From a virus: a DNA stretch of 45,512 bases. A model generated the notes under the pieces. It saw only the letters and a list, made by a program, of their open reading frames with translations. It was not told where the DNA came from and made no database searches. Positions 7,472 to 41,369 of this stretch are shown here, piece after piece. Both the position numbers and the translations under genes were made by a program. Location of the stretch: the IMG/VR virus record IMGVR_UViG_3300032282_002191, positions 1 through 45,512 of that record, one strand, 5' to 3'. Position 1 is the first letter of the stretch; every line of letters starts with the position of its first letter.

Positions 7472-7476
7472 TTAAA

Positions 7477-7655: not shown

Positions 7656-7718
7656 ATCTAAACGTTGCTTTTGGTCTCCTCGCACCTTTACTACGCACGT
7701 CGATCCTATTTCGCCCCC

Positions 7719-7785: not shown

Positions 7786-7856
7786 TGGTGGAGGCGGCGG
7801 GTACTGCCCCCGCGTCCGAAACGTTTATTCCATACGCCTCAACGACCTCAGCAAAC

Positions 7857-8216
7857 CTATTTATCGGACCATCCACGGAACGCTTCTTCGTTCAGGTAAC
7901 CATTCTTCTTTAGTGACCTGATCACCGCGAGCGCGATACCGTAGTTGTTGCGATTATTCTCCTTAGCCCACTCGACTGACTCAATCATATCTTTTACGTG
8001 TGGCTCAAACATTGTCATCGATGTGTCTGTGTGTCGCATGAGATCACCGTCACCGACACGACGCAGGTAATCCATGCCACCATCGACCGCGATAGCGCCA
8101 CACACGCACTGACGATAGTCATGTGTGTTAGCGGACCACGGCTCGTCGCCACAGTCGTGACAGATCACCGAGTTCTGAATGATCTTACGACGAAGTGAAT
8201 TCTCTTTCTCTGTCAT
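7857..8216 (-). CDS. zinc-binding-like protein, unknown function
   Basis: A 119-residue protein with CHDCGDEPWS followed by QCVCGAIAVDGG, a CxxC...CxC arrangement that could hold a zinc ion, then a helical C-terminal half ending EEAFRGWSDK. I do not know a function. The start ATG overlaps the stop of the SWIM-type gene (ATGA), so the two are likely translated together. Its stop codon lies within a TATAAATA-like box just before the tmRNA. Confidence 0.65.
   Translation of the reverse strand: MTEKENSLRRKIIQNSVICHDCGDEPWSANTHDYRQCVCGAIAVDGGMDYLRRVGDGDLMRHTDTSMTMFEPHVKDMIESVEWAKENNRNNYGIALAVIRSLKKNGYLNEEAFRGWSDK
7858..7865 (-). promoter_or_regulatory. possible late promoter for the tmRNA-tRNA unit
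   Basis: Minus strand GATAAATA, one base from the T4 late consensus, overlapping the stop of the 7857-8216 gene and just upstream of the tmRNA acceptor piece. Weak on its own. Confidence 0.3.
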
Positions 8217-14529: not shown

Positions 14530-15522
14530 TTAACAATAAGACGCGATACGGCTACCATATTCGTAGAAGCCAAAATCATAGACTTTACACTCAGTCCCAT
14601 CAGTTATTCTGTTAATAACTTCTTGCTTATTATCGGGATTCACGTAGAAGAGGAAGAAGCCTCCACCGCCAGCACCTAGAAGCTTACCTCCCAAAGCACC
14701 AGCCTCTAGAGCTTTATTGTATACGCCATCGAAGTAGTCGTTGCTGATGTCAGAGGCTACAGCTTTCTTATCCATCCAAGCGTCGTGAAGCAGAGAGCCG
14801 AAGTCGTCAAGCTTACCTTCTTTCAGGTAACGTGCACCGACATAAGCTTTATTACGCGAGCGCTTTACGAGATTAAACTTATCGATGTCACTCATCGCTT
14901 TTGCTTGCTTCTGCAAGATAGAGTTAGCGTTACGACCTTTGCCCGAATATACTAGGAGCAAACGTTGCTCGAGATCATTCCAGATATCACGATTGTATGT
15001 GATAGGCTTGATGTCTACGCTGTCATCGGCGTTGAACTCAAATAGGTTCATGCCACCGTACGCTGAAGCGTACTGATCTTGCTTACCGACAGGATAGTTA
15101 CACATGTTACGTTCGATATGATACGCCGTCTGAGCGAGATACTCTCTAGACGTATGACTCGAGTGTCTCTCACTGTTAGCTAGAGCGTTGATCAGACCTA
15201 GAGTAAAAGCCGAAGACGATCCTAACCCAGAACCCTTAGCAAGAATGTCAGCGATTGAAGCCACTGTGACTTCTTTAGAGATATCAAAATACTTCAAGCT
15301 CTCACGTGTGATAGCGTGTTGCATCTGCTCCACATCTGGAAACTCTTCGATCGTGTCATACATGATCTTGATACCCAGATGTGGAGTCTTATGAACCATA
15401 ACGTAGATAAACTTGTCGATAGTGACTGACAGAGCTGCACCTTTCTCCTTGGTGTAAAACTCTGGCATGTCACTACCACCGCTGAAGAAACTCAAACGCA
15501 GCGGAGTCTTAGAGAGGATCAT
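14530..15522 (-). CDS. hddA: D-glycero-D-manno-heptose 7-phosphate kinase (GHMP family)
   Basis: The 330-residue GHMP kinase phosphorylates C1 of heptose 7-phosphate to give the 1,7-bisphosphate. Family motifs are present: TPLRLSFFSGGSDMPEF at the N-terminus, the ATP loop AKGSGLGSSSAF (95-106), and a C-terminal KLLGAGGGGFFLF. N-terminal SFFSGGSD is diagnostic for HddA-type sugar kinases over other GHMP kinases. The start overlaps the glycosyltransferase stop (ATGA). The same operon carries GmhA, GmhB-like phosphatase, nucleotidyltransferase and transaldolase genes, which supports the heptose assignment. Confidence 0.85.
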   Translation of the reverse strand: MILSKTPLRLSFFSGGSDMPEFYTKEKGAALSVTIDKFIYVMVHKTPHLGIKIMYDTIEEFPDVEQMQHAITRESLKYFDISKEVTVASIADILAKGSGLGSSSAFTLGLINALANSERHSSHTSREYLAQTAYHIERNMCNYPVGKQDQYASAYGGMNLFEFNADDSVDIKPITYNRDIWNDLEQRLLLVYSGKGRNANSILQKQAKAMSDIDKFNLVKRSRNKAYVGARYLKEGKLDDFGSLLHDAWMDKKAVASDISNDYFDGVYNKALEAGALGGKLLGAGGGGFFLFYVNPDNKQEVINRITDGTECKVYDFGFYEYGSRIASYC

Positions 15523-16523
15523 GGTGTAGTCCTATAGATAAACTTTTGTTTAGGGATAGCACGAGAAGCTTCGTCCGGATACTGTTTGACGAGATCGTTA
15601 AGCATGATCTCCCACAGGTTCTTGATACGTGCGATGTTGTAACGACTATCGACGAACGTCTTATTGAAGTTCTGCATATACTTATGCTCACCGCTACGAA
15701 CGAAGTTGATAGCACCATTCAAGTGATTGATAAAGATGTTAGCGTGAGTGTTACGATCTTCAAAGTCACCGTGATACATAATGTTCAAGGCACCCGATGT
15801 TTCAGGCAAAGCACCAAAGTTAGGATGTACACACACTAGGCCGGCTGACATAGCTTCCAACATCGCCCGACATGACGTCTCGATCCAGATAGAGGGATAA
15901 GCAAAGATGTCCGCTTTATTCAAATGTTCTTTGAGTTCACTGTTAGGAACGAAGCCATGATACGTCATCTTCGGATGATTGCGAATCTGTTCGTAGAGCG
16001 GCTCGAACTGTTTATCCATCTCTTCCCAACCATAGATCTTAAAGCTAGAGAATACGTCGAGATGAATGTCGTCGTGCAACTCACAGAGTTTATCAAACAC
16101 TGGAACTAGAAGCTCAAGACCACGCTGAGGCGTAGATGTATACACTAAGCGAATAGTTCCATCATTTGGCTTATTGATCTCCGGCGCGGGTTCGATACCT
16201 GACTCAAGTATGATCGACTTAGTATCGTAAGGAATGCCATGCACCAACTGATAACGCTGATACTGCCAGTCGCTAATGAATACAAACTTATGAAAACTAT
16301 CTTGGAATGTTTTATCCTGAAACTTACGTGACTCAGGATCTTCCGCCAAGTCGTGGGCCCAGAAGATACGAATCTTCGTGGGATCAAGATCGCGAACACG
16401 AGAGCTTACGATCTGAAAGTTATCTAACAACTTAGGATCAATGATCTCAGCTAACTTACGCTTAGCGATCTCGGTCCCGCCGTTAGCGTTTTTAGAAACT
16501 TCGTTCTCTTCAAAAGCACTCAT
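15519..16523 (-). CDS. glycosyltransferase, GT4 type
   Basis: 334 residues with a GT-B, GT4-like pattern: an N-terminal NGGTEIAKRKL start, RIRIFWAHDLAEDPES, then the C-terminal donor-binding half with LVYTSTPQRGLELLV, FHGFVPNSELKEHLNKADIFAYPSIWIETSCRAMLEAMSAG (the E-x7-E-like motif). It probably transfers an activated sugar, plausibly the heptose made by neighbouring enzymes, to a glycan or protein. Acceptor unknown. The ATG overlaps the transaldolase stop and its stop overlaps the hddA start (ATGA both sides). Confidence 0.82.
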   Translation of the reverse strand: MSAFEENEVSKNANGGTEIAKRKLAEIIDPKLLDNFQIVSSRVRDLDPTKIRIFWAHDLAEDPESRKFQDKTFQDSFHKFVFISDWQYQRYQLVHGIPYDTKSIILESGIEPAPEINKPNDGTIRLVYTSTPQRGLELLVPVFDKLCELHDDIHLDVFSSFKIYGWEEMDKQFEPLYEQIRNHPKMTYHGFVPNSELKEHLNKADIFAYPSIWIETSCRAMLEAMSAGLVCVHPNFGALPETSGALNIMYHGDFEDRNTHANIFINHLNGAINFVRSGEHKYMQNFNKTFVDSRYNIARIKNLWEIMLNDLVKQYPDEASRAIPKQKFIYRTTP

Positions 16524-17251
16524 ATTGCAAACCCTGACTTAAGAGCATCATTATAAAACATCTCACATGTTTCTTTTGAGAACTGTGTAAGATCTTTACC
16601 AAAACCCTTAACTTTCTTGATTAGATCAGGAGTCATAGTAATGATATCGCATCCACACTCTTGAGCACAGATGTAGTTGTGAGCTTCGCGAGAACTTGCC
16701 CAGAGGAATTCTACATTGTCATCGGCTTCTCTAATTGAGTCATAGTACAAGACACCGCGGGAAATAATATCGCGTGGATTAACACCGACGTCAGCGATAC
16801 GACCCGCAAAGACGGAGATGATGGAAGGAGTCGTTCGTACGAGTGCGTTGAGAGTCTCTTCAATCTGTTGTACAGTAAAGACTGCAGTCACATTAACTTT
16901 GATACCTTCAGAACTTAACTGATTGATGATCGGTGCAGTCGACGTACCATCAGTATGCATGACGGGGATCTTCACATATACGGGGTAGTTGTACTCTTCG
17001 CCCCATGAATCAATGAGTCGTGCTTGACGCAAGATGTTTACCGGATCATCTGCAAATACTTCAAGACTAAGATTTGTATCTTCGCGCTTATCCGCCAGAT
17101 AAGCAATAACACGAGTAGCAAACTCAGCGTAATTAGTTACACCGGCTGCTCTCATTAATGTTGGGTTGGTCGTAAAACCAGAGATGGAAGAATCTTTTGC
17201 TGCAGTGATGATGCCATCTAGATCGGCACCGTCGGCATATAACTTAATCAT
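16520..17251 (-). CDS. tal: transaldolase (TalC-like)
   Basis: The 243-residue protein fits the short transaldolase/fructose-6-phosphate aldolase family. The N-terminus IKLYADGADLDGI, the FTTNPTLM motif and the Schiff-base lysine in VYVKIPV (Lys94) are in place, with INVTAVFTV-like and SVFAGRIADVG motifs later. Transaldolases interconvert fructose 6-phosphate and sedoheptulose 7-phosphate; here it could supply sedoheptulose 7-phosphate for the GmhA step. Marine cyanophages also carry TalC, usually linked to pentose phosphate flow. Start ATG at 17251 is used (GGAG 10 bases upstream); a TTG at 17260 is possible. Confidence 0.85.
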   Translation of the reverse strand: MIKLYADGADLDGIITAAKDSSISGFTTNPTLMRAAGVTNYAEFATRVIAYLADKREDTNLSLEVFADDPVNILRQARLIDSWGEEYNYPVYVKIPVMHTDGTSTAPIINQLSSEGIKVNVTAVFTVQQIEETLNALVRTTPSIISVFAGRIADVGVNPRDIISRGVLYYDSIREADDNVEFLWASSREAHNYICAQECGCDIITMTPDLIKKVKGFGKDLTQFSKETCEMFYNDALKSGFAI

Positions 17252-17783
17252 GATTTTCAAGCTCCGCGATAAGAGTACATGCTTGTAGAACGTTATCTAC
17301 AATGTAGTCAGGATAGATGTGTTCGTATTTTTCTGGGGTGGTGTATTTGTCGCCAACGAATATCGTGGTCAACTTACTCTTGTGACCGGCAACGATGTCT
17401 TTCCATCTGTCACCTACTATATAGCTACTTCCTCGATCGATCTTGTATGATTTGATAAGAGTCTCAAACATACCATTGTTTGGTTTATACCAAGCTGATC
17501 CTCGCTCATAAGCTACGAGCCCGTCGTCAATACCTAACCAGTTGACACACATACGTATCATCATCTGTAAGTGAGAGTTTTGTAGCTTACCGTCGTAAAC
17601 GTCGGGCTGATTCGTAGCGATGAGTGTTATGAAGTCGTGACTCTTGACGATTTGAACACCCTGTTTAGCGCCATCGATGAATCTGAACTCATCGATGTGC
17701 CAAGGTGCAGTCATCTCGCCGTTATGATCTACGAGATGATTAAGAACGCCGTCTCTGTCAAAGAAGACAGCGCGTCTTGTTAC
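17244..17783 (-). CDS. gmhB: HAD phosphatase, GmhB/HisB-N-like
   Basis: A HAD-family phosphatase with the nucleophile motif VFFDRDGVLNH, plus TNQPDV (motif II), WYKPNNGMFETLI and VGDRWKDIVAGHK (motif IV). GmhB removes the C7 phosphate from heptose 1,7-bisphosphate; the context next to GmhA and HddA fits. Family members usually hold zinc through Cys/His pairs; these cysteines are not evident here. No ATG fits: GTG at 17783, overlapping the previous stop (GTGGTAA), gives MVTRRAVFFDRDG; a TTG at 17834 would add 17 residues. Confidence 0.8.
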   Translation of the reverse strand, partial: VTRRAVFFDRDGVLNHLVDHNGEMTAPWHIDEFRFIDGAKQGVQIVKSHDFITLIATNQPDVYDGKLQNSHLQMMIRMCVNWLGIDDGLVAYERGSAWYKPNNGMFETLIKSYKIDRGSSYIVGDRWKDIVAGHKSKLTTIFVGDKYTTPEKYEHIYPDYIVDNVLQACTLIAELENHD

Positions 17784-28422: not shown

Positions 28423-30701
28423 CAGATTTTACAAGCCTCGCAATCTTCTTCGTTAACTGCACCAGCGGCGAGTACAGGCATCTCATATTCACCGGCACCA
28501 TCGTTGGTGTTGAAGTAATATAGTTGCTTGCCACCATACTTATAAAACATCAGGAGGTGTCCGATCATCTCTGACATCGGGATCTTTTCATCTTCGTAGA
28601 ACTTTGGGTTATACGAGGTGTTAACACTGATACCTTGGTCGATGAACTTTTGAAGGATGGCGCAGATTTTAAGATAACCTTCCGGTGACTTTTGATCCCA
28701 TAGAAGGTCATATTTGTTTTTGAGCTTTCGAACTTCTGGTACAACTTGTTTAAGAACGCCGTCTTTTGATTGCTTAACTGATACAAGCGAGCGTGGAGGC
28801 TCAATTCCATTCGTTGCATTACTAATCTGCGCAGATGTTTCTGATGGCATGAGTGCCATAAGTGTACTGTTTCTGATTCCATATTGCTTTGCTGCTTCTG
28901 CAAGCTCTCTCCAAGGAAAGTTGTATTGCGGGGTAACCAATTCATCAACATCTCTTTTGTAAGTATCAATAGGGAAGATTCCATTGCCATACTTTGTTTC
29001 TCCACTCTTAGGGCATGCACCTTTCTCTTTGGCGAGATCGATAGATGCTTTAATTAGATAATAAGACCATGCTTCTGTATAAGCATGAAGTTTGTTTAGA
29101 CCATCAGAGTTAATGTGCTGATAATTAAGATCATTACGAGCGAGCCAGTAAGCGAGGTTAATAATACCGACACCAAGAGGGCGACGACCCATAGTGGAAT
29201 TTCTAGCTGCCAGTACTGGATAATCTTGATAGTCAAGTAACTCATCGAGAGCACGCACAGCAAGGGTACAAGGAAGTTCAAAATCAGCGGGATCACGAAT
29301 CTTTCCCCAATTAATAGCGGCTAGTGTACATAGTGAGATCTCTCCATTTGGATCATTAATATCATTAAGTGGCTTTGTAGGAAGATCAATCTCACAACAA
29401 AGATTAGACTGTTTGATTGGCGCTAGTTCTTTGATGAATGATCCGTGGTCGTTGGCATGGTCAACATTTTGCAGGTAAATTCTTCCTGTGTCTTTTCGCT
29501 CTTGCATAAAAGCTGAAAAGAGCTCAATGGCAGGGATTGACTTCTTTCTGAGTTTTGTTGAACGCTCATATTTTTCATATAGATCTCTAAACTTATCGGT
29601 ATCAATAAAAAAGCTGTCATACAAATCAGGAACATCATGAGGGCTAAACAAAGTAATGTTGCCGCCTGCCAAAAGTCTTTCATACATCACCTTATTAAAT
29701 TGAACGCCATAATCTAAACCGCGAATACGATTGTCTTCTGTGCCCTTGTTATTCTTGAGTACTAAGAGATCTTCGACCTCCAGATGCCAGATAGGGTAAT
29801 AAAGAGTTGCTGCACCGCCACGGACACCTCCCTGTGAGCAAGATTTAACCGCGCTTTGGAAGTGTTTGTAAAAGGGAATAACGCCAGTATGTGAAGCATC
29901 CCCGTTGCGAATAGGAGAGCCGATAGCACGAATACGACCAGCACTGATGCCAATACCAGCTTTTTGAGAAACATACTTAACGATCGAGGAAGCCGTCGCA
30001 TTGATGGAATCAAGTGAGTCATCTGTCTCGATAAGAACACACGAAGAGAACTGCTTTTGAGGAGAACGTAGACCCGCCATGATAGGAGTCGGTAGCGAAA
30101 TATCGAAATTAGATGTTGCATCATAAAGTTCCTTTATCCATTTGTTACGATCAGCACCATAGTTTCTAAACAGCACCATAGCGATGAGCATATATGCCAT
30201 CTGCGGCGTCTCAAAGATCTTACCAGTAACTCGGTTTCTTATGAGATACTTACCGCGGAACTGTTCCATTCCTACATAGGAAATGTTGAAATCACGTGTG
30301 TGATCAAGATAGCGATTAAGAGCATTAATGTCAGCTCCAGAATACCAATTAAGAATATCCTTGTCATAATACCCAGCGTCCACAACATTACGAACATGAG
30401 TGAGAAGATCAGGAACGTTAAAATCACCGTACACCTCTTTTCTTAGATGATAGTTAATGAGACGACCAGCGACATATTGGTAGCCGGGAGTGTCTTCACT
30501 GATGAGATCGGCTGACGCTTTAATGAGAGTTTCTTGAATGTCGCCGGTCTTGATGCCATCATAGAACTGGATGTGAGACTTGATCTCAACCTCTGACTCT
30601 GAGACGCCGTTTATACCTTCACAAGCCCAAGCTACCACTTTATGAAACTTATTGAGATCTAGTGGTTCTTTTCTACCGTCACGCTTGGTTACTTGGATCA
30701 T
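28422..30701 (-). CDS. nrdA: class Ia ribonucleotide reductase alpha subunit
   Basis: 759 residues, close to E. coli NrdA (761). Starts with an ATP-cone (IQVTKRDGRKEPLDL...). The active-site set is present: SSCVLIETDDSLDS (first Cys), NLCCEIDLPTKP (thiyl radical Cys region), SLCTLAAINWG (partner Cys), and a C-terminal CEACKI tail for reduction by glutaredoxin. PSETSAQ and NATNGIEP match conserved loops. It provides deoxynucleotides during phage replication. First gene of the RNR unit behind an early-type promoter. Confidence 0.95.
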   Translation of the reverse strand: MIQVTKRDGRKEPLDLNKFHKVVAWACEGINGVSESEVEIKSHIQFYDGIKTGDIQETLIKASADLISEDTPGYQYVAGRLINYHLRKEVYGDFNVPDLLTHVRNVVDAGYYDKDILNWYSGADINALNRYLDHTRDFNISYVGMEQFRGKYLIRNRVTGKIFETPQMAYMLIAMVLFRNYGADRNKWIKELYDATSNFDISLPTPIMAGLRSPQKQFSSCVLIETDDSLDSINATASSIVKYVSQKAGIGISAGRIRAIGSPIRNGDASHTGVIPFYKHFQSAVKSCSQGGVRGGAATLYYPIWHLEVEDLLVLKNNKGTEDNRIRGLDYGVQFNKVMYERLLAGGNITLFSPHDVPDLYDSFFIDTDKFRDLYEKYERSTKLRKKSIPAIELFSAFMQERKDTGRIYLQNVDHANDHGSFIKELAPIKQSNLCCEIDLPTKPLNDINDPNGEISLCTLAAINWGKIRDPADFELPCTLAVRALDELLDYQDYPVLAARNSTMGRRPLGVGIINLAYWLARNDLNYQHINSDGLNKLHAYTEAWSYYLIKASIDLAKEKGACPKSGETKYGNGIFPIDTYKRDVDELVTPQYNFPWRELAEAAKQYGIRNSTLMALMPSETSAQISNATNGIEPPRSLVSVKQSKDGVLKQVVPEVRKLKNKYDLLWDQKSPEGYLKICAILQKFIDQGISVNTSYNPKFYEDEKIPMSEMIGHLLMFYKYGGKQLYYFNTNDGAGEYEMPVLAAGAVNEEDCEACKI

Positions 30702-30717
30702 TTCTTCTTCTCCTTAA

Positions 30718-30730
30718 CAAATAAATACTA
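30718..30730 (+). promoter_or_regulatory. possible late promoter for the plus-strand pair
   Basis: Plus strand AAATAAATACTAT is close to TATAAATA, 45 bases upstream of the ATG at 30774, with the divergent early promoter of nrdA adjacent. Moderate to weak. Confidence 0.35.
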
Positions 30731-30758
30731 TTATACACTATTCGACAATCAATGTACA
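30730..30758 (-). promoter_or_regulatory. early-type promoter for nrdA-SET-nrdB
   Basis: Minus strand TGTACA (30753-30758), 17 bases, TATAAT (30730-30735). The ATG of nrdA is 29 bases downstream with AAGGAG. Confidence 0.72.
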
Positions 30759-30773
30759 ATAAAAAGGTGTGAT

Positions 30774-31061
30774 ATGGACGTTAACTCTATATTTAAGTTG
30801 ATCTCAGATGTAGGCTTCCCAATAGCAGCCGCTTGTGCTATGGGCTACTTCATTTTCTTAACGATTAAGTTTATTCTCGCGGGCGTTATGAGTGCTGTAA
30901 ACAGCATGAAAGGCATCATCATGGCTCTCGATAACAGAGTTAAGACGATGAACCACGATGTCATAAGAATCGACACTCTCGTCTCCAACGTTATGGGTGT
31001 TAAACCGGACACTGACCGTATCGCCCGTGCGGACGGCAAAAACGATGCAAGAAGGGATTGA
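30774..31061 (+). CDS. small membrane protein, holin-like (first of a pair)
   Basis: 95 residues from MDVNSIFKLISDVGFPIAAACAMGYFIFLTIKFILAGV; one clear membrane helix (about 15-39) follows a short amphipathic start, and the rest is soluble and helical. The second gene (31064-31414) has the same layout (VGFPIAAACAMGY vs YGFPIVAAGGMGY), so they look like a duplicated pair. Such proteins resemble BhlA/UviB-type holin-like proteins, but no lysis role is proven. AAGGTG precedes the ATG; upstream in-frame codons lie in the promoter region. Only plus-strand genes of the window. Confidence 0.6.
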   Translation: MDVNSIFKLISDVGFPIAAACAMGYFIFLTIKFILAGVMSAVNSMKGIIMALDNRVKTMNHDVIRIDTLVSNVMGVKPDTDRIARADGKNDARRD

Positions 31062-31063
31062 AT

Positions 31064-31414
31064 ATGGGTAATCTAGCGGACCTAATTGCAAAATATGGAT
31101 TTCCTATAGTCGCTGCTGGTGGCATGGGATACATGATCTACTATGTATGGACATGGGCCACCAAAGAAATTAAGCCTGTTCTCAATGATGCTAATGTAGT
31201 ACTTATAGCGCTCATCGACCGTATTCGTATGCTTGATAACGATTTAATTCGACTGAATCAAAAAGTCAACATAGTTCTTATGCTTCGTGAGATGAAGCAT
31301 GACGAGTTAGTAGCAAAAGCGAGCGAGTTCAGAAAGAGCGAGCGTGGGCCCGTAGACGCTCCAAAGCAAGAGACCGGTGAGCAGAAAAAAGAAGAATCCA
31401 GTAAAGTAAAGTAA
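31064..31414 (+). CDS. small membrane protein, holin-like (second of a pair)
   Basis: 116 residues starting MGNLADLIAKYGFPIVAAGGMGYMIYYVWTWATKEI, one membrane helix near 11-31, then a helical and charged tail (KQETGEQKKEES). The ATG follows the first gene's stop by two bases, with AAGGG upstream. The partner gene shares the GFP(I)xAAxxMGY core. Possibly a holin/antiholin-like pair; alternatives include membrane anchors for other functions. It converges on the minus-strand radical SAM gene with one base between them. Confidence 0.6.
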   Translation: MGNLADLIAKYGFPIVAAGGMGYMIYYVWTWATKEIKPVLNDANVVLIALIDRIRMLDNDLIRLNQKVNIVLMLREMKHDELVAKASEFRKSERGPVDAPKQETGEQKKEESSKVK

Positions 31415-31415
31415 G

Positions 31416-32573
31416 TTAGACAACAAGTTTGTAACCAAACACTTCTTCAAAGCTCTCATCTCTCATAGCGTCATAGTTCTTAGTTAATCTACAGAATTTG
31501 TCGAAGTCTTTGAGAGGTGAGAACTTTAAGACACCACTCATAGCTTCAAGTTCTTTCTTTACTCTCTTAAACTTAGGATGAAATAATTTAGAGTTAGCTT
31601 GATCTATTTGCTCAATCGCTATCTTTCTAAGTCTTTCATCTAAACATGATGGTGCCATACCAAGCGGGCGACCAGCAACGTGCATTTGAAAAGTCATATT
31701 ATTAAACTTTTCTATAGACTCATTATAAAAATCTATTAAAGCATTCATATCTAATACCGTATAAGCAGTAACAGTAGAATGAATCATAGGTTTAATGTTT
31801 GGAAGAGAAGCTAACTTATAAGCATTTTCTTTTACTATTTCCCAGTCAGTTCCTTTGCGCTGATACTCGGCAACTCTACCTACTGCATCTATACTAAGAT
31901 TGAGTCTAACATTCTTAAACTTAGTTATTTTCTCAGCAAACTTAGGATTATAGACACTACAGTTAGTGTAGATAAGTAATGCTACATCTTCTGACTTGCC
32001 GTTATCAATAAGTCTATCCATAAGATCATAATATTGTTTCATCAACAATGGTTCACCGCCCGTTAGAAACAAGTAGCGAAGATCTTCAGTAGAACTTATT
32101 ATCTCTTTCCAGTCTTTCTCGCTGATCTCGCTCAACTCATTAGTTTCAATGTTATGAAAGTTATGTGCGAAAGGAAACTTAGTAGCTTCTCTAGCAATCT
32201 CAATGCTGTTGGTAGGATTACACATCCTACACATGAAGTTACATTGGTTGCTACAACGTAGCTCTACGTACTCGAGAGGCTTATCAGCAAACTCAGTAAA
32301 CTTATCTTTAGTGTATTCGGGAAAGTTTCTAAGAAATTGTTGTCTGATACTTAGAAGATTCTTATCTTCATTACGCCAACAGTTACCACAGTTATTAGGT
32401 TTATCACCTTTTATAAAATCTTGTCTAAGCTTCTTTAGGTAATCACTTTTTAGAAACTCTTTTGGTGACATCTTAAGTTTATCAGCACTAGTGCAACAAA
32501 CACTCGCTTTATCCACTTGATAAAACATTGAGATCCACGGGGCCGGACAGAAAGAGTTATCTTCTTTTTTCAT
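31416..32573 (-). CDS. radical SAM protein, paralogue of the 4.5 kb gene
   Basis: 385 residues. CNFMCRMC gives Cys111, Cys115, Cys118 for the 4Fe-4S cluster, and TGGEPLLMKQ follows. N-terminal cysteine motifs FCPAPW, CC (26-27) and CGNCW (62-65) repeat the layout of the 4465-5841 protein, suggesting one enzyme class with an auxiliary cluster. Located at the leftmost end of an envelope-glycan island (glycosyltransferase, LpxH-like, cyclase, curli genes). Substrate unknown. Confidence 0.8.
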   Translation of the reverse strand: MKKEDNSFCPAPWISMFYQVDKASVCCTSADKLKMSPKEFLKSDYLKKLRQDFIKGDKPNNCGNCWRNEDKNLLSIRQQFLRNFPEYTKDKFTEFADKPLEYVELRCSNQCNFMCRMCNPTNSIEIAREATKFPFAHNFHNIETNELSEISEKDWKEIISSTEDLRYLFLTGGEPLLMKQYYDLMDRLIDNGKSEDVALLIYTNCSVYNPKFAEKITKFKNVRLNLSIDAVGRVAEYQRKGTDWEIVKENAYKLASLPNIKPMIHSTVTAYTVLDMNALIDFYNESIEKFNNMTFQMHVAGRPLGMAPSCLDERLRKIAIEQIDQANSKLFHPKFKRVKKELEAMSGVLKFSPLKDFDKFCRLTKNYDAMRDESFEEVFGYKLVV

Positions 32574-32574
32574 A

Positions 32575-33546
32575 TCAAACTCTTAAGTTATCGATAAACA
32601 TATTTGCAGTTTTTTTCCAGTCATAATTTTCTTTAATGAACTTAGAACAATGTGATGATTTAAGTTTAAGTGCTTTTTCACAGGCAATTTTAAGATCCCA
32701 ATCCATTGCTCCAACTTTTTTATTGAGAATATCAATTGGACCCGTAACTGGGTAAGCAGCAACTGGTGTTCCACAAGCAAGAGCTTCAATTATAACGAGA
32801 CCAAATGTATCTGTTTTTGATGGGAATACAAATACATCTGCGTTTTGATAGACAAAAGCTAAGTTTGTTCCTGATAACTTACCCATAAAATTAACACAAC
32901 GATATTTTTGTTTTAGTCTTTCTAACTCTGGGCCATCACCAATGACAACTTTAGTTGCTTTAACATCTAGATCTAAAAATGCTTCAATATTTTTTTCAAC
33001 TGAAACTCTACCGACGTAAAGAAACATAGGTATTTTTGCTTTTGGTTTTGGTTTAACTGGAGGTTTGAATAGGTTAGTATCTACTCCACGTGTCCACTTA
33101 ACGAGATTAACAAAACCACGGCGTTCTAAGTCTTTCTTTAAACTGTCAGTTGATACCATCACGGCTGAACTTTTAGAGTGAAACCATTTCATATAACGAT
33201 ACGTTAATCGTGTAGGAAAGTTAATCATAGCTTCAAGAAACTCAGGAAACTTTGTGTGATAACTCGTGGTAAAGTTTCTTTTATTTTTAATGCACCAGTT
33301 TCTTACTGCGAGTCCTATCGGACCCTCTGTAGCAATATGAATATACTTAGGGTTTAATTTCTTTATCTTCTTATCAATATTAATAGCAAAAGATAGTCTT
33401 ATCTCTTTATAAAACGGACATGGGAAAGACTTGAAGTCATTTGGTGTAATGAATACAACATCATCACACTCTTCTTGTATCTTCTTTAATGTCATTACTA
33501 CGCCATTGACCTGTGGGCACCAAGCGTCAGTTGCTATTAGTATCAT
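32575..33546 (-). CDS. glycosyltransferase, GT4 family
   Basis: 323 residues with MILIATDAWCPQVNGVVMTL (GT-B N-terminal GG/NGV loop), YIHIATEGPIGLAVRNWC, then FLYVGRVSVEKNIEAFLDL and VFPSKTDTFGLVIIEALACGTPVAAYPVTGP, the E-x7-E donor site. This pattern is that of mannosyl-type transferases such as those in lipid or glycan pathways. It pairs with an LpxH-like phosphatase, with the two genes overlapping by 20 bases. The pair also occurs in bacteria, so it may be a transferred module. Confidence 0.85.
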   Translation of the reverse strand: MILIATDAWCPQVNGVVMTLKKIQEECDDVVFITPNDFKSFPCPFYKEIRLSFAINIDKKIKKLNPKYIHIATEGPIGLAVRNWCIKNKRNFTTSYHTKFPEFLEAMINFPTRLTYRYMKWFHSKSSAVMVSTDSLKKDLERRGFVNLVKWTRGVDTNLFKPPVKPKPKAKIPMFLYVGRVSVEKNIEAFLDLDVKATKVVIGDGPELERLKQKYRCVNFMGKLSGTNLAFVYQNADVFVFPSKTDTFGLVIIEALACGTPVAAYPVTGPIDILNKKVGAMDWDLKIACEKALKLKSSHCSKFIKENYDWKKTANMFIDNLRV

Positions 33547-34291
33547 TCCATCTCACCAATTCAAATCTACCATCGTAGTGTTCAACAATAGCAGTGCAGG
33601 ATTCTACCCAGTCACCACAATTATAATATTTAATACCATTAAATTCGCTGATATTTGCATGATGAATGTGGCCGCATATGACACCAACAACATCTTGAGT
33701 CTTTGCAAAAGAAGCAAGCGTCTCTTCGTAGTTACCAATAAAGTTTACTGCTTCTTTAACTTTATATTTCGCCCAAGCACTTAGCGACCAATATGGTAAA
33801 TCAAACCAATTTCTAATTTTTGTTACGATGATATTAAGAGCCATCGCAAAATCATAAGCCCAAGAACCGAGATGTGCTAACCACTTTGCATTCTTAATAA
33901 CTGCATCAAATTGATCACCGTGTATGATAAGTATAGGTTTACCATCTACAGATATGTGAACAAAACGTTCCAGTATGTGAATGTTGCCAAAGAACTGATC
34001 ACCAAAGTTTCTTAATACCTCATCATGATTACCAGAAACATATATAATGTCTGTTCCTTTACGTCCACGTCTAAGGATCTTTTGTATAACGTCATTATGA
34101 CTTTGATGCCAGTACATATTCTTTGACATAGCCCAACAATCAATGATATCACCAACTAGATAAAACTTATCGCATTCAAACGTTTTCATAAAATCTAAGA
34201 GAGCGTTAGCTTGGCAAGCTTTAGTACCTAAATGTACGTCTGAGATGAACACAGAACGATACTTATTTACTATCGGTTCTGAAGACTCCAT
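33527..34291 (-). CDS. metallophosphoesterase, UDP-2,3-diacylglucosamine diphosphatase-like
   Basis: 254 residues of the calcineurin-type phosphoesterase fold: FISDVHLGTKACQANALLDFM (DxH), LVGDIIDCWAM (GDxxD), SGNHDEVL (GNHD), LIIHGDQFDAV and CGHIHHANISEFNG (GHxH). LpxH-like enzymes remove UMP from UDP-diacylglucosamine in lipid A assembly, but other homologues act differently. The context (glycosyltransferase, curli export, signalling protein) points to envelope modification. ATG at 34291 has GGGAG upstream and overlaps the cyclase gene by 29 bases. Confidence 0.8.
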   Translation of the reverse strand: MESSEPIVNKYRSVFISDVHLGTKACQANALLDFMKTFECDKFYLVGDIIDCWAMSKNMYWHQSHNDVIQKILRRGRKGTDIIYVSGNHDEVLRNFGDQFFGNIHILERFVHISVDGKPILIIHGDQFDAVIKNAKWLAHLGSWAYDFAMALNIIVTKIRNWFDLPYWSLSAWAKYKVKEAVNFIGNYEETLASFAKTQDVVGVICGHIHHANISEFNGIKYYNCGDWVESCTAIVEHYDGRFELVRWNDTNSN

Positions 34292-36326
34292 CCCAATTTT
34301 CTCCCGGTGGATTTTTCTTATATTCTTCTACTCTCTCCATCATCATATCATAATACTCTTTCATCTCACCGCTAAACGCGTTTTCAAGAGTCTTATAGTA
34401 ACCGTCAAGTCTATCCCACTCTTGTGCTCTATAAAGATTTATAAAGTCTTGATGAGTACGAGAATAAGCAATGTTGATACTATTCCTATCAACAATCGTG
34501 TAAATGTTAACACCTTCGGTCTTTCCTTTCACAGCAAGACAGTCTAGCTCTAAGCATAGATACTCGTCTTTAACATATTCATATGTCTTTGGACCAATCA
34601 CTAGCTTAACATGATATGGCTTTGACTGACCTTCTAGTCTTGAGGCCAAGTTAACAGAGTCACCGAGGCAAGTATAATCGAAACGCTGAGAGCTACCCAT
34701 ATTTCCGACAACAACAGAACCAGTATTGATACCAAGACCCATACCAAAAGCAGGAATACCTTCGTTGGCGATCTCAGCGTTGAAGCGATCCAAGTCGCCA
34801 AGCATTGAAAGAGCTGTCTTAACTGCATGTTTTGCATGATCCCTATCGTCTAGTGGTGCGTTCCAAAAAGCCATCTGAGCGTCACCGATATACTTATCTA
34901 GTGTACCCTCGTTCTCCAATATCTTAGCAGTCATCGCTGTCATGTAGCGATTCATAATTTGAGTAAGACCTTGAACGTTATATCCATAATGCTCACTAAT
35001 AGTAGTGAAGCCGCGAACATCAGTAAACATAATTGAAAGTTCTCTGGTTTCTCCTCCAAGGCGTAATAACTCCGGATTCTTTTGTAGTTTTTCTACAAGT
35101 GCTGGTGAAAGATAAGTACCAAACTGTTTCTTAATTTGAAGCTTTAATCTATTTTCACGCGCAAAGTTATTATAAATTAAGTGACCGAAGACTATACCAC
35201 AACTAAATAGGATGTAACTCGGATCCCATAGTTGTAACGACTGAGTGAACAGCAAGTAAGAACCACCCGCTAAGGAGACAACGAGTGTTAGCAACACAGG
35301 TATGGTCCAAAAGACCGAAACACGAGGTACTAGAACTAGTAATGTGCCTAACAACATTACTAGGAGCACTTGCTCTAATAGCTTACTCTCTGGTGACCTA
35401 CTGATAGACGTTCCATCAATAACTGTCTGAAGCGCTTGAGCTTGAATCTCATGTGCCCACTTCTCTCCGATCGGTGTAGCGATGATACCACCTACACCCT
35501 CGATAGTCAATCCTAACACGACTATCTTATCTTTTATTTTTTCTGGAACGAGTTCAGTCGCTTCGACACGCTCGAACTTGTTGTTCCAAGCGAGCCAGAT
35601 GCGCCCGTTTTGGTCGGTGCTGATCGCTGGGAATTGTGGGATGCGGACTGCTTCGACTCCTGCTTCACCGGTCTTGATCTGGTAAGAGGGGTCGCCAGCA
35701 ACTGTTCGTAGGGTTTCCAATACGAGAGAAGGATAAAGTGTATCGCCAATCCTAGCCAGCATAGGCAAACGACGAACCACACCGTCGCGCTCAGGAGCGC
35801 CGGCAAGAAGCCCCACACCAGCAGCGTTATCTGCCAGATCTTTAAGAGGAGCAACAGCCCCGCGCCAAGTATACAACCATGAATCAGGAGCATTACCGAT
35901 AGCAGCAAAACCTCTGCGAGCTGCATCTGGCGCTCTTGACTGAGCTGTTGGTGTCTGTGATATAACCACACCACCGGCGCCGATAGACTTTGCAAGATCA
36001 TTATCACCACCGGCTCTATCTTTCTCAGAGAATAGAATAGGAACGATAATAGCAGCAGCACCTGCTGCCCGAAGTTTCTCAATAGTTTGAGCGATGTCTC
36101 TACGATCGAACGGCCACTGTCCGAACTGCTGGACTGACTTTTCTCCGAACTCAACTAATACTACCTCTTCCGAATCTTTCTTATCCAAAGATGTAATGAA
36201 GTAGTCAAATGTTTTCAGTTGTAAAGTTTCAACAGGACTTGGATTTATGATGTAAACAGTAATCAGCAATAACGTCGTTATTGCCGCGGCCCACGTGCTG
36301 GTTAAGTATTTGCCCAGTGTTTCCAT
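34263..36326 (-). CDS. CHASE2-domain class III nucleotidyl cyclase
   Basis: 687 residues. N-terminal helix (about 10-30), CHASE2 sensor domain (30-330) with LKTFDYF, GQWPFDRRDIAQTIEKL and IGVRG-like segments, then a block of membrane helices (about 335-420), and a cyclase domain: FTDVRGFTTISEH, GTLDKYIGDAQMAFWN (metal Asp sites) and GINTGSVVVGNMGS...DYTCLGDSVNLASRLEG. It should make cAMP (or cGMP) in the cytoplasm in response to an extracytoplasmic signal. In bacteria CHASE2 cyclases accompany FecR-like genes; here a FecR-like gene is nearby. Translation starts at ATG 36326. Confidence 0.9.
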   Translation of the reverse strand: METLGKYLTSTWAAAITTLLLITVYIINPSPVETLQLKTFDYFITSLDKKDSEEVVLVEFGEKSVQQFGQWPFDRRDIAQTIEKLRAAGAAAIIVPILFSEKDRAGGDNDLAKSIGAGGVVISQTPTAQSRAPDAARRGFAAIGNAPDSWLYTWRGAVAPLKDLADNAAGVGLLAGAPERDGVVRRLPMLARIGDTLYPSLVLETLRTVAGDPSYQIKTGEAGVEAVRIPQFPAISTDQNGRIWLAWNNKFERVEATELVPEKIKDKIVVLGLTIEGVGGIIATPIGEKWAHEIQAQALQTVIDGTSISRSPESKLLEQVLLVMLLGTLLVLVPRVSVFWTIPVLLTLVVSLAGGSYLLFTQSLQLWDPSYILFSCGIVFGHLIYNNFARENRLKLQIKKQFGTYLSPALVEKLQKNPELLRLGGETRELSIMFTDVRGFTTISEHYGYNVQGLTQIMNRYMTAMTAKILENEGTLDKYIGDAQMAFWNAPLDDRDHAKHAVKTALSMLGDLDRFNAEIANEGIPAFGMGLGINTGSVVVGNMGSSQRFDYTCLGDSVNLASRLEGQSKPYHVKLVIGPKTYEYVKDEYLCLELDCLAVKGKTEGVNIYTIVDRNSINIAYSRTHQDFINLYRAQEWDRLDGYYKTLENAFSGEMKEYYDMMMERVEEYKKNPPGENWDGVFRTDSK

Positions 36327-36328
36327 GA

Positions 36329-36592
36329 TCAATACTGATTGATGATGTAAGGACTATTAGGACAGTAGCTGCCGCAAGTGATAGACAAGCTAAAAGACTG
36401 AGGCGTTTGACCCGATTGATTGGCGATGACTGATATAGAGTCTCCGCTAAGAGACAAGCTAGCAGAATGACCAGCACCAGATTGAGTAATAGAAACATTT
36501 TGAGTAGCTCCCTGAAGATTCACGGTAGCGTTATTAACTGTCTGTGAATAAGCAGCAGTAGTCATAAGAAGTAAAGCTAAAAATGTTCTCAT
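36329..36592 (-). CDS. small exported curlin-repeat-like protein
   Basis: 87 residues. Signal peptide MRTFLALLLMTTAAYS, then Asn/Gln/Ser/Gly-rich strands NVSITQSGAGHSASLSLSG and SVIANQSG that resemble curlin repeats, ending in a segment with CGSYC. Likely secreted, perhaps through the CsgG-type pore encoded 1.7 kb away. The ATG overlaps the FecR stop (TAATG). A subunit or nucleator of an extracellular fibre is inferred. Confidence 0.7.
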   Translation of the reverse strand: MRTFLALLLMTTAAYSQTVNNATVNLQGATQNVSITQSGAGHSASLSLSGDSISVIANQSGQTPQSFSLSITCGSYCPNSPYIINQY

Positions 36593-37704
36593 TAGTTACC
36601 CTGCTTTATATTGATGGTTGTTGTTCCAGCACTATTTACCATCTGCGTAATAGTAACGTTTTCTTGAGTTAGATTCAACGTCAAGCTATTATTCGTCGAT
36701 ACTTTAACTTCGGCGTAGGAACTACTAGTTTCACGATACAGAGTGACGTAGTCATTCTCAACGAAATATTTCAAGCCAGTTGCAGCATTATACTTAGGTA
36801 AGAGTGCATTGAATTCTACCAACTCATTACCTAAGAGCTGAGAGCTGGAAATATCGAGTAGATTATACAGGAAATCAGAGTCAAGATAGTTTCTATCTAG
36901 TTTGTTGTAGTCTTTAAGATAATCTTTACTTAACTCGGAATATGCTAATAGATCTTGACCAAGCAAGTCTTCATCGAGGAAGTTATACGCTTTTGTCACT
37001 GTAGTTTCTTGTTGAACGACTTGTCTAGGTGGCGTGACGATGATGAGGTTGTTGATCTGATCTAGACTAAGATTCAGAATAGCAGACTGAGGTTTCTGTA
37101 TACCTGAGTTAACTGTAACTGACTCAAATGGTTTCGTTAGCCAGATCTTACCCATGATTGTAGTGACGGATATAGATCCAGTGACACAGTCACGCTCAAC
37201 GTCTTTCCAACCAGCAGGACAAGAGGGAAGTAATATGATCGTTGATCTTCCCGTTTCATCTACTGATCCCGAAAAGTCTGTTCCTCTAACACCGATCGTC
37301 GCGGTAGGTGTCTCTACCACGACTTGTTGAGGATCGTTCTTTGCTATTTGTCCCGATGCATACTTAATCGTACCAAGAGCCATCTTGATTCCAAGCTTAC
37401 CAGTCTTCTTGGAATCATCATAAACGAACGTATCTATAACTAACTTCGAGTGCTCAGTGATTTGAACTTTCGTATCATCTTTAAAAGTGATACCGGCTCT
37501 GCTGTTAGCTGTAGTGACAGTGTCGTTCATTTCCACTTCGGACTGAACCGCAGATGGAACTACACTACCGGCTCTTTTAATCTCAGTTGGACCCGTCTGT
37601 TCAGTTACTTTTCCAACGTCAGCTTTAGTTGTGGTTGGACTTAACAGTAAGAGCGTTACCAGACCCAGTGATTGTAGAATTGACTTTACTATCAACGTTG
37701 CCAC
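36592..37704 (-). CDS. FecR-domain exported protein with curlin-like C-terminus
   Basis: 370 residues. A signal peptide (SILQSLGLVTLLLLSPTTTKA) precedes a FecR-type domain: RAGSVVPSAVQSEVEMNDTVTTANSRAGITFKDDTKVQITEHSKLVID, then TATIGVRGTDF. FecR domains sense or scaffold in the periplasm. The C-terminus (LTQENVTITQMVNSAGTTTINIKQGN) looks like curlin repeats. The start is GTG at 37704 or TTG at 37695 (AGGG 8 bases before the TTG), overlapping the curlin gene by 71-80 bases. Confidence 0.78.
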   Translation of the reverse strand: MATLIVKSILQSLGLVTLLLLSPTTTKADVGKVTEQTGPTEIKRAGSVVPSAVQSEVEMNDTVTTANSRAGITFKDDTKVQITEHSKLVIDTFVYDDSKKTGKLGIKMALGTIKYASGQIAKNDPQQVVVETPTATIGVRGTDFSGSVDETGRSTIILLPSCPAGWKDVERDCVTGSISVTTIMGKIWLTKPFESVTVNSGIQKPQSAILNLSLDQINNLIIVTPPRQVVQQETTVTKAYNFLDEDLLGQDLLAYSELSKDYLKDYNKLDRNYLDSDFLYNLLDISSSQLLGNELVEFNALLPKYNAATGLKYFVENDYVTLYRETSSSYAEVKVSTNNSLTLNLTQENVTITQMVNSAGTTTINIKQGN

Positions 37705-38308
37705 CCTGCTTAATATCTACAGTGTTAGTGGCACCTAATATATTCACGTTAGATTCATGACCATTGATGCCGGCGACACCAGTTTGTTTAATTGCTACAT
37801 CGTTACCGCCACCACCATCGATGAGAACAATACTTTTCGATCCAGACACTGAAGTAGAATCGCTTTGAATGTTTACAGTATTGTTATCGGTGTTGATAGT
37901 AACTGACGATATTGATACGCCCTCGATGTTCTGCGTGACAGTGTTTCCGTCACCAGTGATAGTGTTTGTGATCGTTGAACCGGAACATGATCCACCGGCG
38001 CCACAAGCAATTCCTACGGAGTTATTATCACCAGTTACATTGGAGTTTACAGTGACACCATCACCAGACACAGAAACGTTGGCAACGTTAGTGTTACCAA
38101 TCTGGTCGATTGTTACGATATTGTTCTGTCCGTTAAACGTTGCTTTCACGGTCGCGTTACCTACAGCATTCGAATTACCAGTTTGGGTGATGTTAATCGT
38201 TGAACCATCACCTATCTGATCAACATATACACTATTACCAGCTGCATTTGCATAATTTACCATAACCAAGAATGACAATAACGCCATCATTCTTGTTATT
38301 AGTTGCAT
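37625..38308 (-). CDS. curlin-like fibre subunit (CsgA/CsgB-like)
   Basis: 227 residues. Signal peptide (about 1-22, MVNYANA cut) then several Asn/Gln/Gly repeats of the curlin type: NSVYVDQIGDGSTINITQTGNSN, NIVTIDQIGNTNVANVSVSG, NDVAIKQTGV, NTVDIKQGGN. This pattern builds stacked beta-hairpins in amyloid fibres. It lies next to CsgG and CsgF, the export pore and chaperone of curli. No CsgE is seen. Secreted subunit of a curli-like fibre is inferred. Confidence 0.8.
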   Translation of the reverse strand: MQLITRMMALLSFLVMVNYANAAGNSVYVDQIGDGSTINITQTGNSNAVGNATVKATFNGQNNIVTIDQIGNTNVANVSVSGDGVTVNSNVTGDNNSVGIACGAGGSCSGSTITNTITGDGNTVTQNIEGVSISSVTINTDNNTVNIQSDSTSVSGSKSIVLIDGGGGNDVAIKQTGVAGINGHESNVNILGATNTVDIKQGGNVDSKVNSTITGSGNALTVKSNHN

Positions 38309-39121
38309 TTATTTTCCCTTCTTAAAGCTCCATAACTTTTTATCTGCGCCTTCTTTGACCATCTGAGTAACTGCCGCCTCAATCGCGATTCTTACGGCGT
38401 ATGTGGTTGGTTCATTAATCGACGAACCCGCTTCAAACTCTACTGCTTTCGTACCTGCGTCGACAAACTTTAAAACGTTAGTATTCACACCTGTACTATA
38501 GATCGTTTTAGTGACACCGGTTGAAAGAAGTATCTCTCCGGTGTTTATAGAAATCAACCTCAACATAATAGTTACTTCGTCTTTTCTGTATTCCTGAGAA
38601 GCTCCCACGCCCAAAAAGCGGGCGCCGATACCCCCAGTACCCAGATTAGAATCGTATCCAACAATCCCACCATCGATCATGATCCCTGCAACGATGAGAG
38701 GTGTAAGAGGCTTTGCTTGATCTTTCTCATACAATTCTCTCTGACTACGAATTAACTGACGTTCTTTGACTAGGTTCTCAAGAGCGACTCGCTCGACTGG
38801 CATGAACCATACACCTTTACCGGCATCTTGTAGCGCCTTAATTAAGAGTACTTCACCACCCTGTGTCACCGCAGAACTAAATGATGCGTAGTTCTGTGTA
38901 GGTTTTCTTTGACCAGTTAAATCAGCAAACTTATAAACAGCAATAGGAATTCTAGGTCCGTCGGGCGGCGTAAGATTCACCAACTCATTGAAACGCTTCG
39001 ACGTCTTGATAGCTTCTGGCGCTTCGGCGTATGGTTCAATAGTTTTCTTAGTAGTCACGCCTTGGCCTGAACAACTCGCGACAAGCATTCCAGCAAATAT
39101 AGCAATCCATAATCTCTTCAT
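38309..39121 (-). CDS. csgG: CsgG-like outer membrane secretion lipoprotein
   Basis: 270 residues with a lipobox LVASC (Cys17). It has the CsgG pattern IPIAVYKFADLTGQRKP, then WFMPVERVALENLVKERQLI, PLIVAGIMIDGGIVGYDSNLGTGGIGARFLGVGASQEYRKDEVTIMLRLISINTGEIL. CsgG forms a nonameric outer membrane channel that secretes curli subunits. The ATG at 39121 sits inside the csgF end region. The lipoprotein and csgF, curlin neighbours make the role strong. Confidence 0.93.
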   Translation of the reverse strand: MKRLWIAIFAGMLVASCSGQGVTTKKTIEPYAEAPEAIKTSKRFNELVNLTPPDGPRIPIAVYKFADLTGQRKPTQNYASFSSAVTQGGEVLLIKALQDAGKGVWFMPVERVALENLVKERQLIRSQRELYEKDQAKPLTPLIVAGIMIDGGIVGYDSNLGTGGIGARFLGVGASQEYRKDEVTIMLRLISINTGEILLSTGVTKTIYSTGVNTNVLKFVDAGTKAVEFEAGSSINEPTTYAVRIAIEAAVTQMVKEGADKKLWSFKKGK

Positions 39122-39126
39122 TTTTC

Positions 39127-39564
39127 TTACCACGCTAGACTTCCATAAGGAACAACGACTTCAGTGACATTACCAGCGGCATCAGTTATTCTCAGAGTAA
39201 TATTCGACCCGTCAGATGACCACGCAACGTTGTTAGTTGAAATGTCAAAAGACCCAGAAGTGTTACCGTTGTCTGAGAACAATTGCTCAGCTATCTTCTG
39301 AGATAATGTAGCATACACTCTACTCTCTAAGTTGTTTAAGAACTTAGCTAGATTGGTATTCTTAGCATCAGATGCAGCTTTGACAGCCTCTGCTTTTTGA
39401 TCATCAATTTGCTTCTGTCTTCTAGTTGCTTCAAGATTATCAATAGTCAAAACATGAGAAGAATAACCGACACCATTGAAAGACGGACTCTTAAATCCAA
39501 ACTGCATCTCACTAGCAAAAGAAGCAGAAGAAATTAGACAGAATACTATAACCATATTCTTCAT
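39127..39564 (-). CDS. csgF: CsgF-like curli assembly factor
   Basis: 145 residues. Signal peptide (MKNMVIVFCLISSASFA), then FGFKSPSFNGVGYSSHVLTIDNLEATRRQKQ, resembling the CsgF N-terminus that plugs into the CsgG channel, then a helical linker and a beta-rich end (VAWSSDGSNITLRITDAAGNVTEVVVPYG). It helps attach and shape secreted curli fibres. First gene of the island behind a TATAAATA late promoter, with CAGGAG upstream of the ATG. Confidence 0.88.
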   Translation of the reverse strand: MKNMVIVFCLISSASFASEMQFGFKSPSFNGVGYSSHVLTIDNLEATRRQKQIDDQKAEAVKAASDAKNTNLAKFLNNLESRVYATLSQKIAEQLFSDNGNTSGSFDISTNNVAWSSDGSNITLRITDAAGNVTEVVVPYGSLAW

Positions 39565-39583: not shown

Positions 39584-39591
39584 TATTTATA
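39584..39591 (-). promoter_or_regulatory. T4-type late promoter for the curli-like island
   Basis: Minus strand TATAAATA, 20 bases upstream of the csgF ATG. A late promoter here suggests csgF, csgG and the downstream genes are expressed late in infection. Confidence 0.7.
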
Positions 39592-40340: not shown

Positions 40341-41369
40341 CTATTTCTTTGTTGCGTTTACTCTTCTTACAGAATGACTTATTCCACAGTATTGTGTACA
40401 CCTTGACATTCTTTCTCTCAGAGCATCATTATTATACCAAAATCTTCTTAAATCACCTTTTTTGTTTAACTTTTGACCTGGGAATCCAGTTGAAAAACAA
40501 AGACGTGCAATACCATTCATATCAACCATAATATTTCGATCAAATGAATTACATATAAGTTTATCTGTACCTTTGCCTTGCCAACCTTTAATAGCATCAT
40601 CATTTTTATGTACACTATGATGATACATTCTTACAGTATCTATCCATTCAGGATCAAGGTTTAGTTTATACTTTTCACTGCACTGATTGAGTATTTCAAA
40701 TAATCCATCATGATCTTTAATGACATTTTTTTTATAAAACTTATCACCCCTATCGGTACCTGTTTCATCCTGTAAAGATCCAAACATAGGTTGCAACCAA
40801 TTGAGCTTAAGTTTGTCCGCTTTTAGATCATTAAGAACAAAGTCATAAAACTTATCTAGGTCACGATAGTTTTGTTCACACATAATAGACATAGCATAGA
40901 CGGGTGTCGGTATATTCAATTTTTGTCGAGCGGCTAATAGTAATTTAATAGCATTTACAGCCATATCAAATGAACCTATCACACCTCTTGTTGAATCATG
41001 TACTTCAGGAATGTAGCTGTTTAATGAGATTGTAATCTCTGTTGGACCTTCTAATATTAATCTTTCTGCCATTTCAGATGTAGTTACCATTGTACCATTC
41101 ATAACTGAAAAGCATTTTAATCCATGTTCTCTACACTTCTTGGTAATTGGCCAATACCGTTCAGGATTCATTAATGCTTCACCACCACAGATTACTATGG
41201 TACCTTTTGGATTTATTTCAGCAAATTCATCAATGATAGCGTTTCTATGTTCAATAGAAATATGACTAGGAAGAACAACTTCCTCTCTTGTCCAATACAT
41301 GCACGTCTTACACTTGAGATTGCATTGTAAATTAGTATCCAAAAAGAGAAACTTAGGAGGTATATTCAT
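40341..41369 (-). CDS. radical SAM protein with SPASM-like C-terminus
   Basis: 342 residues. CNLKCKTC gives Cys16, Cys20 and Cys23; IVICGGEALMNPERY follows. The C-terminal part has extra cysteines (ICNSFDRNIMVDMNGIARLCFSTG and CTQYCG), a SPASM-like pattern that may hold auxiliary clusters. Markedly AT-rich compared with neighbours. Its ATG overlaps the galactosyltransferase stop (ATGA). Likely acts on a peptide or sugar; substrate unknown. Confidence 0.78.
   Translation of the reverse strand: MNIPPKFLFLDTNLQCNLKCKTCMYWTREEVVLPSHISIEHRNAIIDEFAEINPKGTIVICGGEALMNPERYWPITKKCREHGLKCFSVMNGTMVTTSEMAERLILEGPTEITISLNSYIPEVHDSTRGVIGSFDMAVNAIKLLLAARQKLNIPTPVYAMSIMCEQNYRDLDKFYDFVLNDLKADKLKLNWLQPMFGSLQDETGTDRGDKFYKKNVIKDHDGLFEILNQCSEKYKLNLDPEWIDTVRMYHHSVHKNDDAIKGWQGKGTDKLICNSFDRNIMVDMNGIARLCFSTGFPGQKLNKKGDLRRFWYNNDALRERMSRCTQYCGISHSVRRVNATKK

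Follow-up and report, generated by a model that had tools for sequence, protein, structure and literature searches.

What would a phage gain from carrying the genes of a bacterial amyloid secretion system next to a FecR domain and a membrane cyclase? The question is raised by the IMG/VR virus record IMGVR_UViG_3300032282_002191 (45,512 bases, analysed whole and called here the window), which belongs to a virus infecting marine or freshwater bacteria. Six open reading frames (ORFs) between positions 34263 and 39564, all on the minus strand and contiguous or overlapping, correspond to csgF, csgG, a curlin-repeat protein, a FecR-domain protein, a small curlin-like protein and a CHASE2 adenylyl cyclase. 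A preliminary description, made from the DNA letters alone, had placed them in this position, order and strand, and Pfam, PHROG, PDB and gene-order comparison all agree with it. The block continues leftward past the cyclase to about 31416, through a plcP-type phospholipase C and an agt-type glycosyltransferase gene and perhaps also a gene for a radical SAM protein. The plcP-agt pair, which overlaps the end of the cyclase gene and was not mentioned in that description, is apparently a previously unreported extension in phages.

A known curli module with a plcP-agt extension

The combination of curli secretion, FecR and a CHASE2 cyclase on a phage had been thought to be new, but it has already been published. 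The genes csgF and csgG were reported in pelagimyophages in 2020 (PMC7029224) and in Methylophilales phage Melnitz (PMC9004378), and Wittmers et al. 2022 (PMC9599517) described the type VIII secretion system (T8SS) set csgF-csgG-csgA/B-FecR-csgA/B-adenylate cyclase in pelagiphages, both podophages and myophages. Searching for the gene order in phages, as had been proposed, we recovered the six genes, identically ordered, in Pelagibacter phage HTVC008M and in Melnitz (EXVC039M), whose module proteins are 31-50% identical to those of the window, and in >30 other viral contigs, which excludes chance. However, neither of these two phages has plcP-agt past the cyclase, and the pair likewise sets the window apart from the pelagiphage T8SS module as published. 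The second curlin is also much smaller here, with 87 amino acids (aa) against about 338 in Melnitz and 441 in HTVC008M. The podophage form has an upstream histidine kinase, whereas none is found directly upstream in the window, where thyX appears instead.

The plcP gene (33527..34291, minus strand, 254 aa, Pfam Metallophos) shares its first 29 nt with the end of the cyclase gene, and agt (32575..33546, minus strand, 323 aa, Pfam GT4) overlaps plcP by 20 nt. The first overlap recurs in contigs L042, L043 and L044 and the second in L043, L044 and L046. In L038 and L025, plcP lies ~0.7 kb past the cyclase; in L038, a family 2 glycosyltransferase (14818-15549) stands between them and offers an alternative partner for plcP. 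Only 1 nt after agt, the window has a gene for a radical SAM (twitch-domain) protein (31416..32573, minus strand; NCBIfam NF033640, 284 bits against a cut-off of 170), possibly the last of the operon, that was not found in other plcP-agt loci.

In phosphorus-starved bacteria, the plcP-agt pair swaps phospholipids for glycolipids (PMC4796936, PMC8231724). The genes and their order are the same here, although the bacterial pair stands in the chromosome while that of the window is phage-borne and overlaps the curli/cyclase operon. The 254-aa protein has the metallophosphoesterase motifs, membership of the alphaproteobacterial PlcP family and the agt neighbor, and the GT4 protein has all 14 of the residues mapped from the published mutant set of the SAR11 enzyme GTcp (14/14, with the dimer residue Leu56 omitted). 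The latter also shows an Asp-type His/Asp catalytic dyad (H97/D246), the diacylglycerol-site residues R153/W310 and the motifs GRVSVEKN and FPSKTDTFG. Judged by these features, the first is a predicted phospholipase C of the PlcP type and the second is of the Agt type. A profile built from the phage PlcP homologues, run against 385 alphaproteobacterial genomes, had strong matches in 143 (best E value 8e-114), and a glycosyltransferase gene adjoins plcP in 25 of the 30 loci inspected there. In trees of both proteins (without known root), the phage sequences stand apart from the bacterial ones.

It could also be argued that the 254-aa protein belongs with the LpxH-type enzymes of lipid A and the GT4 protein with those of lipopolysaccharide (LPS), in which case the extension would modify LPS and not glycerolipids. 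Homologues are annotated as UDP-2,3-diacylglucosamine hydrolase, and LpxH structures were the only PDB relatives found. Nevertheless, the phosphoesterase reached 50.5 bits with the LpxH model, far below the NCBIfam equivalog cut-off of 134, for which reason we rejected the LpxH identity. Moreover, its closest bacterial relatives adjoin agt, and the FPSxTDTFG motif of the GT4 protein is of the Asp type found in the Agt/GTcp group, so that LPS modification appears very improbable. No report of phage plcP-agt, phage plcP or phage lipid remodeling was found in the literature, in a search that did not cover most subscription papers. A lone plcP homologue, annotated as UDP-2,3-diacylglucosamine hydrolase, is present in Pelagibacter phage Mosig (L069:2903-4738), in divergent orientation to the gene of a phosphate ABC transporter.

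Components of the export and sensing genes

The first gene of the block, csgF (39127..39564, minus strand), codes for a T8SS accessory/chaperone protein of 145 aa (Pfam CsgF, E value 2.5e-16; phrog_35372). It is followed by csgG (38309..39133, minus strand), coding for the outer-membrane secretion pore (274 aa; Pfam CsgG, 4.3e-52; PDB CsgG, 4e-47). The protein aligns to Escherichia coli CsgG structures, and its lipobox-type Cys21 is invariant across 12 aligned phage-type sequences. Next comes a putative secreted CsgA/B-like subunit with a curlin-type repeat (37625..38308, minus strand, 227 aa). Its single match to Pfam Curlin_rpt, at 20.2 bits, is slightly below the curated cut-off of 20.7, and NCBIfam CsgA matches weakly. 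AlphaFold2 gives a confident beta-solenoid (mean predicted local distance difference test score 86.7) that weakly supports a curlin-like identity, as no PDB match of the model passed an E value of 0.001 in Foldseek. The small, presumably secreted protein (36329..36592, minus strand, 87 aa) has a conserved ...QY end in an alignment of 16 phage sequences and no family match in Pfam or PHROG.

Altogether, four of the six proteins pass the curated Pfam cut-offs, and four fall in PHROG families of their own (35372, 20175, 37870, and 35576), so relatives are already present in phage collections. We consider the gene identities, as read from the sequence, very probably correct: those proposed at the outset for csgF, csgG, FecR, and the cyclase were borne out by Pfam, while the curlin repeat fell just short of its threshold and the 87-aa protein was left without a match. 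For this protein and for the tail of the FecR protein, which has none either, the term curlin-like therefore refers to repeat pattern, position and conservation.

Compared with the curli system of E. coli (csgBAC/csgDEFG), the window has homologues of CsgG and CsgF and, less certainly, curlin-type repeats. In contrast, no CsgE, CsgC, or CsgD was detected among the module and the scanned neighbors (not every ORF of the window was scanned), and the operon includes a FecR protein and a cyclase. The same three proteins have been published as absent in pelagiphages (PMC9599517), and they are not needed in every T8SS.

The FecR-domain protein (36592..37704, minus strand, 370 aa; Pfam FecR, 4.8e-12; phrog_37870) appears to be secreted. 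A signal-peptide-like helix (residues 2-20) runs straight into the FecR domain, without an N-terminal cytoplasmic anti-sigma part; behind the domain come a linker modeled with low confidence and a curlin-like tail rich in beta structure, whose terminal I-x-Q (I366/Q368) is kept in distant homologues. In Foldseek, the model matches FecR-type cell-surface-signaling (CSS) domains (4m0h and 6ovk). Thus, the periplasmic FecR/CSS domain is shared with the FecI/FecR/FecA regulator but the anti-sigma part is missing, which makes iron-citrate regulator the wrong name for this protein and leaves the iron-regulator role suggested in the literature unsupported.

The last gene of the set codes for a CHASE2-transmembrane class III adenylyl cyclase (34263..36332, minus strand, 689 aa; Pfam CHASE2, 3.2e-42; Guanylate_cyc, 6.8e-20; phrog_35576). 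Activity is plausible, given the CHASE2 domain, the hydrophobic membrane block and the class III catalytic motifs FTDVRGF, DKYIGD, and YTCLGDSVNLASR. The cyclase domain retains the residues that in class III cyclases serve metal, purine and transition-state binding. The possibility raised in the preliminary description, that the cyclase or CsgG might lack the expected fold, is thus not borne out, with the catalytic residues of the cyclase kept. Campylobacterota have gene clusters in which a CHASE2 cyclase accompanies a FecR-domain protein (PMC9239204), together with TPR and phosphodiesterase genes. The CHASE2 cyclase adjoins a FecR protein in the window too, but no TPR or cyclic AMP (cAMP) phosphodiesterase gene was found adjoining them, and curli export genes occupy the neighborhood instead.

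Phage setting and evolution of the module

T4-like genes flank the module on both sides (gp32-type single-stranded DNA-binding protein, primase, nrdA, nrdB, thyX, phoH, and tail lysozyme), and upstream of csgF there are thyX, radical SAM and glycosyltransferase genes. Judging by these neighbors, the module is phage DNA with no prophage edge. The opposite view, that the module stems from host DNA at a prophage boundary or from faulty assembly, had been considered from the start, and the record does lack end repeats and is possibly a fragment. We rejected it as having a negligible probability: besides the phage genes on both sides, the cultured phages HTVC008M and Melnitz carry the same module, and in the bacterial curli loci that we examined, neither FecR nor a cyclase is a neighbor. 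These loci, ten in number (L075-L079 and L092-L096, of which two are short or lie at the edge of a contig), contain csgG and seem genuinely bacterial; most have curlin-type ORFs near csgF/csgG, and none has such a FecR protein or cyclase nearby. For this reason, the union of curli genes with FecR and cyclase looks phage specific. In alphaproteobacteria, the CsgF cut-off was exceeded in only five of the 385 genomes sampled.

Full or partial curli modules are also found in five genome contigs labeled Rhodobacteraceae, Flavobacteriaceae, or Pirellulales (L070-L074). These are probably phage contigs in bacterial bins, and we rejected the idea that the six genes as a set come from bacteria. One of the contigs (L071) carries phage genes for a minor coat protein and a late sigma factor, and bin G001 has four csgF copies on four contigs; L072 and L073 have no clear phage structural marker. 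The CsgG match in OR851715.1 (1499 bp, "Salmonella phage S.Kent 1-2-1") may be host csgG and not phage.

Two contigs (L044:3160-8029 and L051:1855-6733) have a diverged csgF-csgG-curlin-FecR block joined to a window-like cyclase, without the small curlin gene between them. Their csgF, csgG, curlin, and FecR are 33-47% identical to those of the window, while the cyclases are 71-72% identical, which suggests that the export genes were probably exchanged as a block and that the adjoining cyclase and core changed less. This agrees with earlier published work, in which the module is seen as moving between phage families. The plcP-agt segment, in turn, appears to have been gained or lost at a single site, which lies between the cyclase and a pair of small ORFs on the opposite strand (30693-31414, plus strand). 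Each of these has an N-terminal membrane segment, with similar starts (GFPIAAA/GFPIVAA), and neither has a Pfam match. The pair is kept before nrdA in four other contigs (L009, L028, L035, and L038) and might be related to lysis.

Other features of the window include tRNA-Ile, tRNA-Arg, and a permuted tmRNA of the alphaproteobacterial type (Rfam RF01849/RF04321) at 7396-7884; their match is generic across Alphaproteobacteria, and we rejected them as a means of host assignment. Consecutive genes for GHMP-kinase-like, glycosyltransferase (phrog_2170), and transaldolase-family proteins are found at 14530-17260. There are three radical SAM proteins in this 45-kb fragment (4465-5841, 31416-32573, and 40341-41369), of which two flank the curli/lipid operon.

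Timing of expression

The octamer TATAAATA is the core of the T4 late promoter. An exact copy (39584..39591, minus strand) lies 19 nt upstream of the csgF ATG, so that, as a motif, the late promoter proposed before this analysis is indeed in place. The window has four exact copies against 2.15 expected, a number not above chance, and all four sit on the coding strand directly before a gene. Among 43 csgF rows (window included), 18 have the exact octamer at about the same place, and the count increases to 23 when NATAAATA is allowed close before the start. In most of those lacking the motif, csgF comes after an upstream reading frame instead. Late expression is likely here, although not universal across related loci.

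Such timing bears on two other roles for the module. One, proposed for Melnitz, is that the CsgG/CsgF pore has been repurposed for lysis timing, its late opening depolarizing or permeabilizing the envelope and aiding release. The late promoter at csgF, the two small membrane ORFs conserved beside the module, the published pore modeling and the absence of clumping in Melnitz cultures (PMC9004378) fit this idea. However, it leaves unexplained the conserved pair of curlin-like subunits, the FecR protein and the cyclase, and secretion substrates are retained in nearly every locus; we regard it as rather unlikely. The other is superinfection exclusion, in which surface amyloid and altered lipids would hide the receptors from competing phages and thereby prevent their adsorption. 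Exclusion has been put forward for pelagiphages (PMC9599517), and lipid remodeling has been proposed to change phage adsorption (PMC9804370). Yet the late-promoter motif suggests an onset after the time of most need, which may not apply to the roughly half of the related loci that lack the motif. We consider exclusion a somewhat weaker candidate than lysis timing.

A possible role in surface and membrane rebuilding

The reading that we favor, at slightly less than an even chance, is that the pelagiphage-type curli module of this T4-like phage and plcP-agt form one late operon that rebuilds the surface and membranes of the infected cell. Somewhat more tentatively, a lytic phage would have a working operon for turning phospholipids into glycolipids, its translation coupled to that of a module for amyloid export and cAMP sensing, with phosphate recovery and surface rebuilding as one late program. 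From the gene identities and order, the kept overlaps, the late-promoter motif and the conserved catalytic residues, all legible in the DNA, we infer secretion, amyloid formation, cAMP output and lipid exchange, which might proceed as follows. The module would be transcribed late. CsgG lipoprotein pores would then form in the outer membrane with CsgF, and the curlin-type proteins, secreted through them, would assemble on the surface. The FecR-domain protein, having a signal peptide and no anti-sigma part, could be a periplasmic or fiber-bound partner of the CHASE2 cyclase. The latter would act as a membrane sensor making cAMP, probably reading the FecR/curlin state and thus reporting the state of export. 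Finally, PlcP would strip phosphate head groups off membrane phospholipids and Agt would glycosylate the resulting diacylglycerol, keeping the membrane intact and freeing phosphate for phage DNA.

Several observations weigh against this reading. We found no experiment in the literature showing a fiber, cAMP or glycolipid from any such phage, and the Melnitz cultures did not clump. The CHASE2-FecR-curlin export link comes from gene neighborhood only, and neither the 87-aa protein nor the FecR tail has a family match. In addition, of the 34 curli-module rows whose sequence extends far enough past the cyclase, just 6 have plcP ≤1.6 kb beyond it (5 different contigs, among them the window), from which it follows that lipid remodeling is not essential to the module.

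A further proposal for the pore is nutrient uptake, with an ungated CsgG channel admitting larger nutrients and PlcP-Agt adding phosphate recovery. It was suggested in PMC7029224 and PMC9599517, and the position of plcP beside a phosphate transporter gene in Mosig agrees with it. On the other hand, neither CsgF nor conserved secreted substrates would be required for uptake, and this role seems quite improbable. The adhesion, clumping and exclusion evoked in the preliminary description were already in print as hypotheses, PMC9599517 having proposed aggregation, exclusion or uptake for the pelagiphage set. The benefit to the phage may lie in any one of phosphate recovery, cell tethering, exclusion of rivals or control of lysis. 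Within the rebuilding of surface and membranes that we favor, the most likely gain is more progeny from phosphorus-poor, sparse hosts, through phosphate recovery and the tethering of neighboring cells by amyloid.

The union of curli genes, FecR and cyclase has been published but so far without an explanation. The overlap of phosphorus-starvation genes with the module in some phages provides a clue, pointing to the envelope and the phosphate economy of the infected cell. If active, plcP-agt would be, within the literature searched, the first phage-encoded pathway of membrane lipid remodeling, and it would bear on phosphorus cycling in oligotrophic waters.

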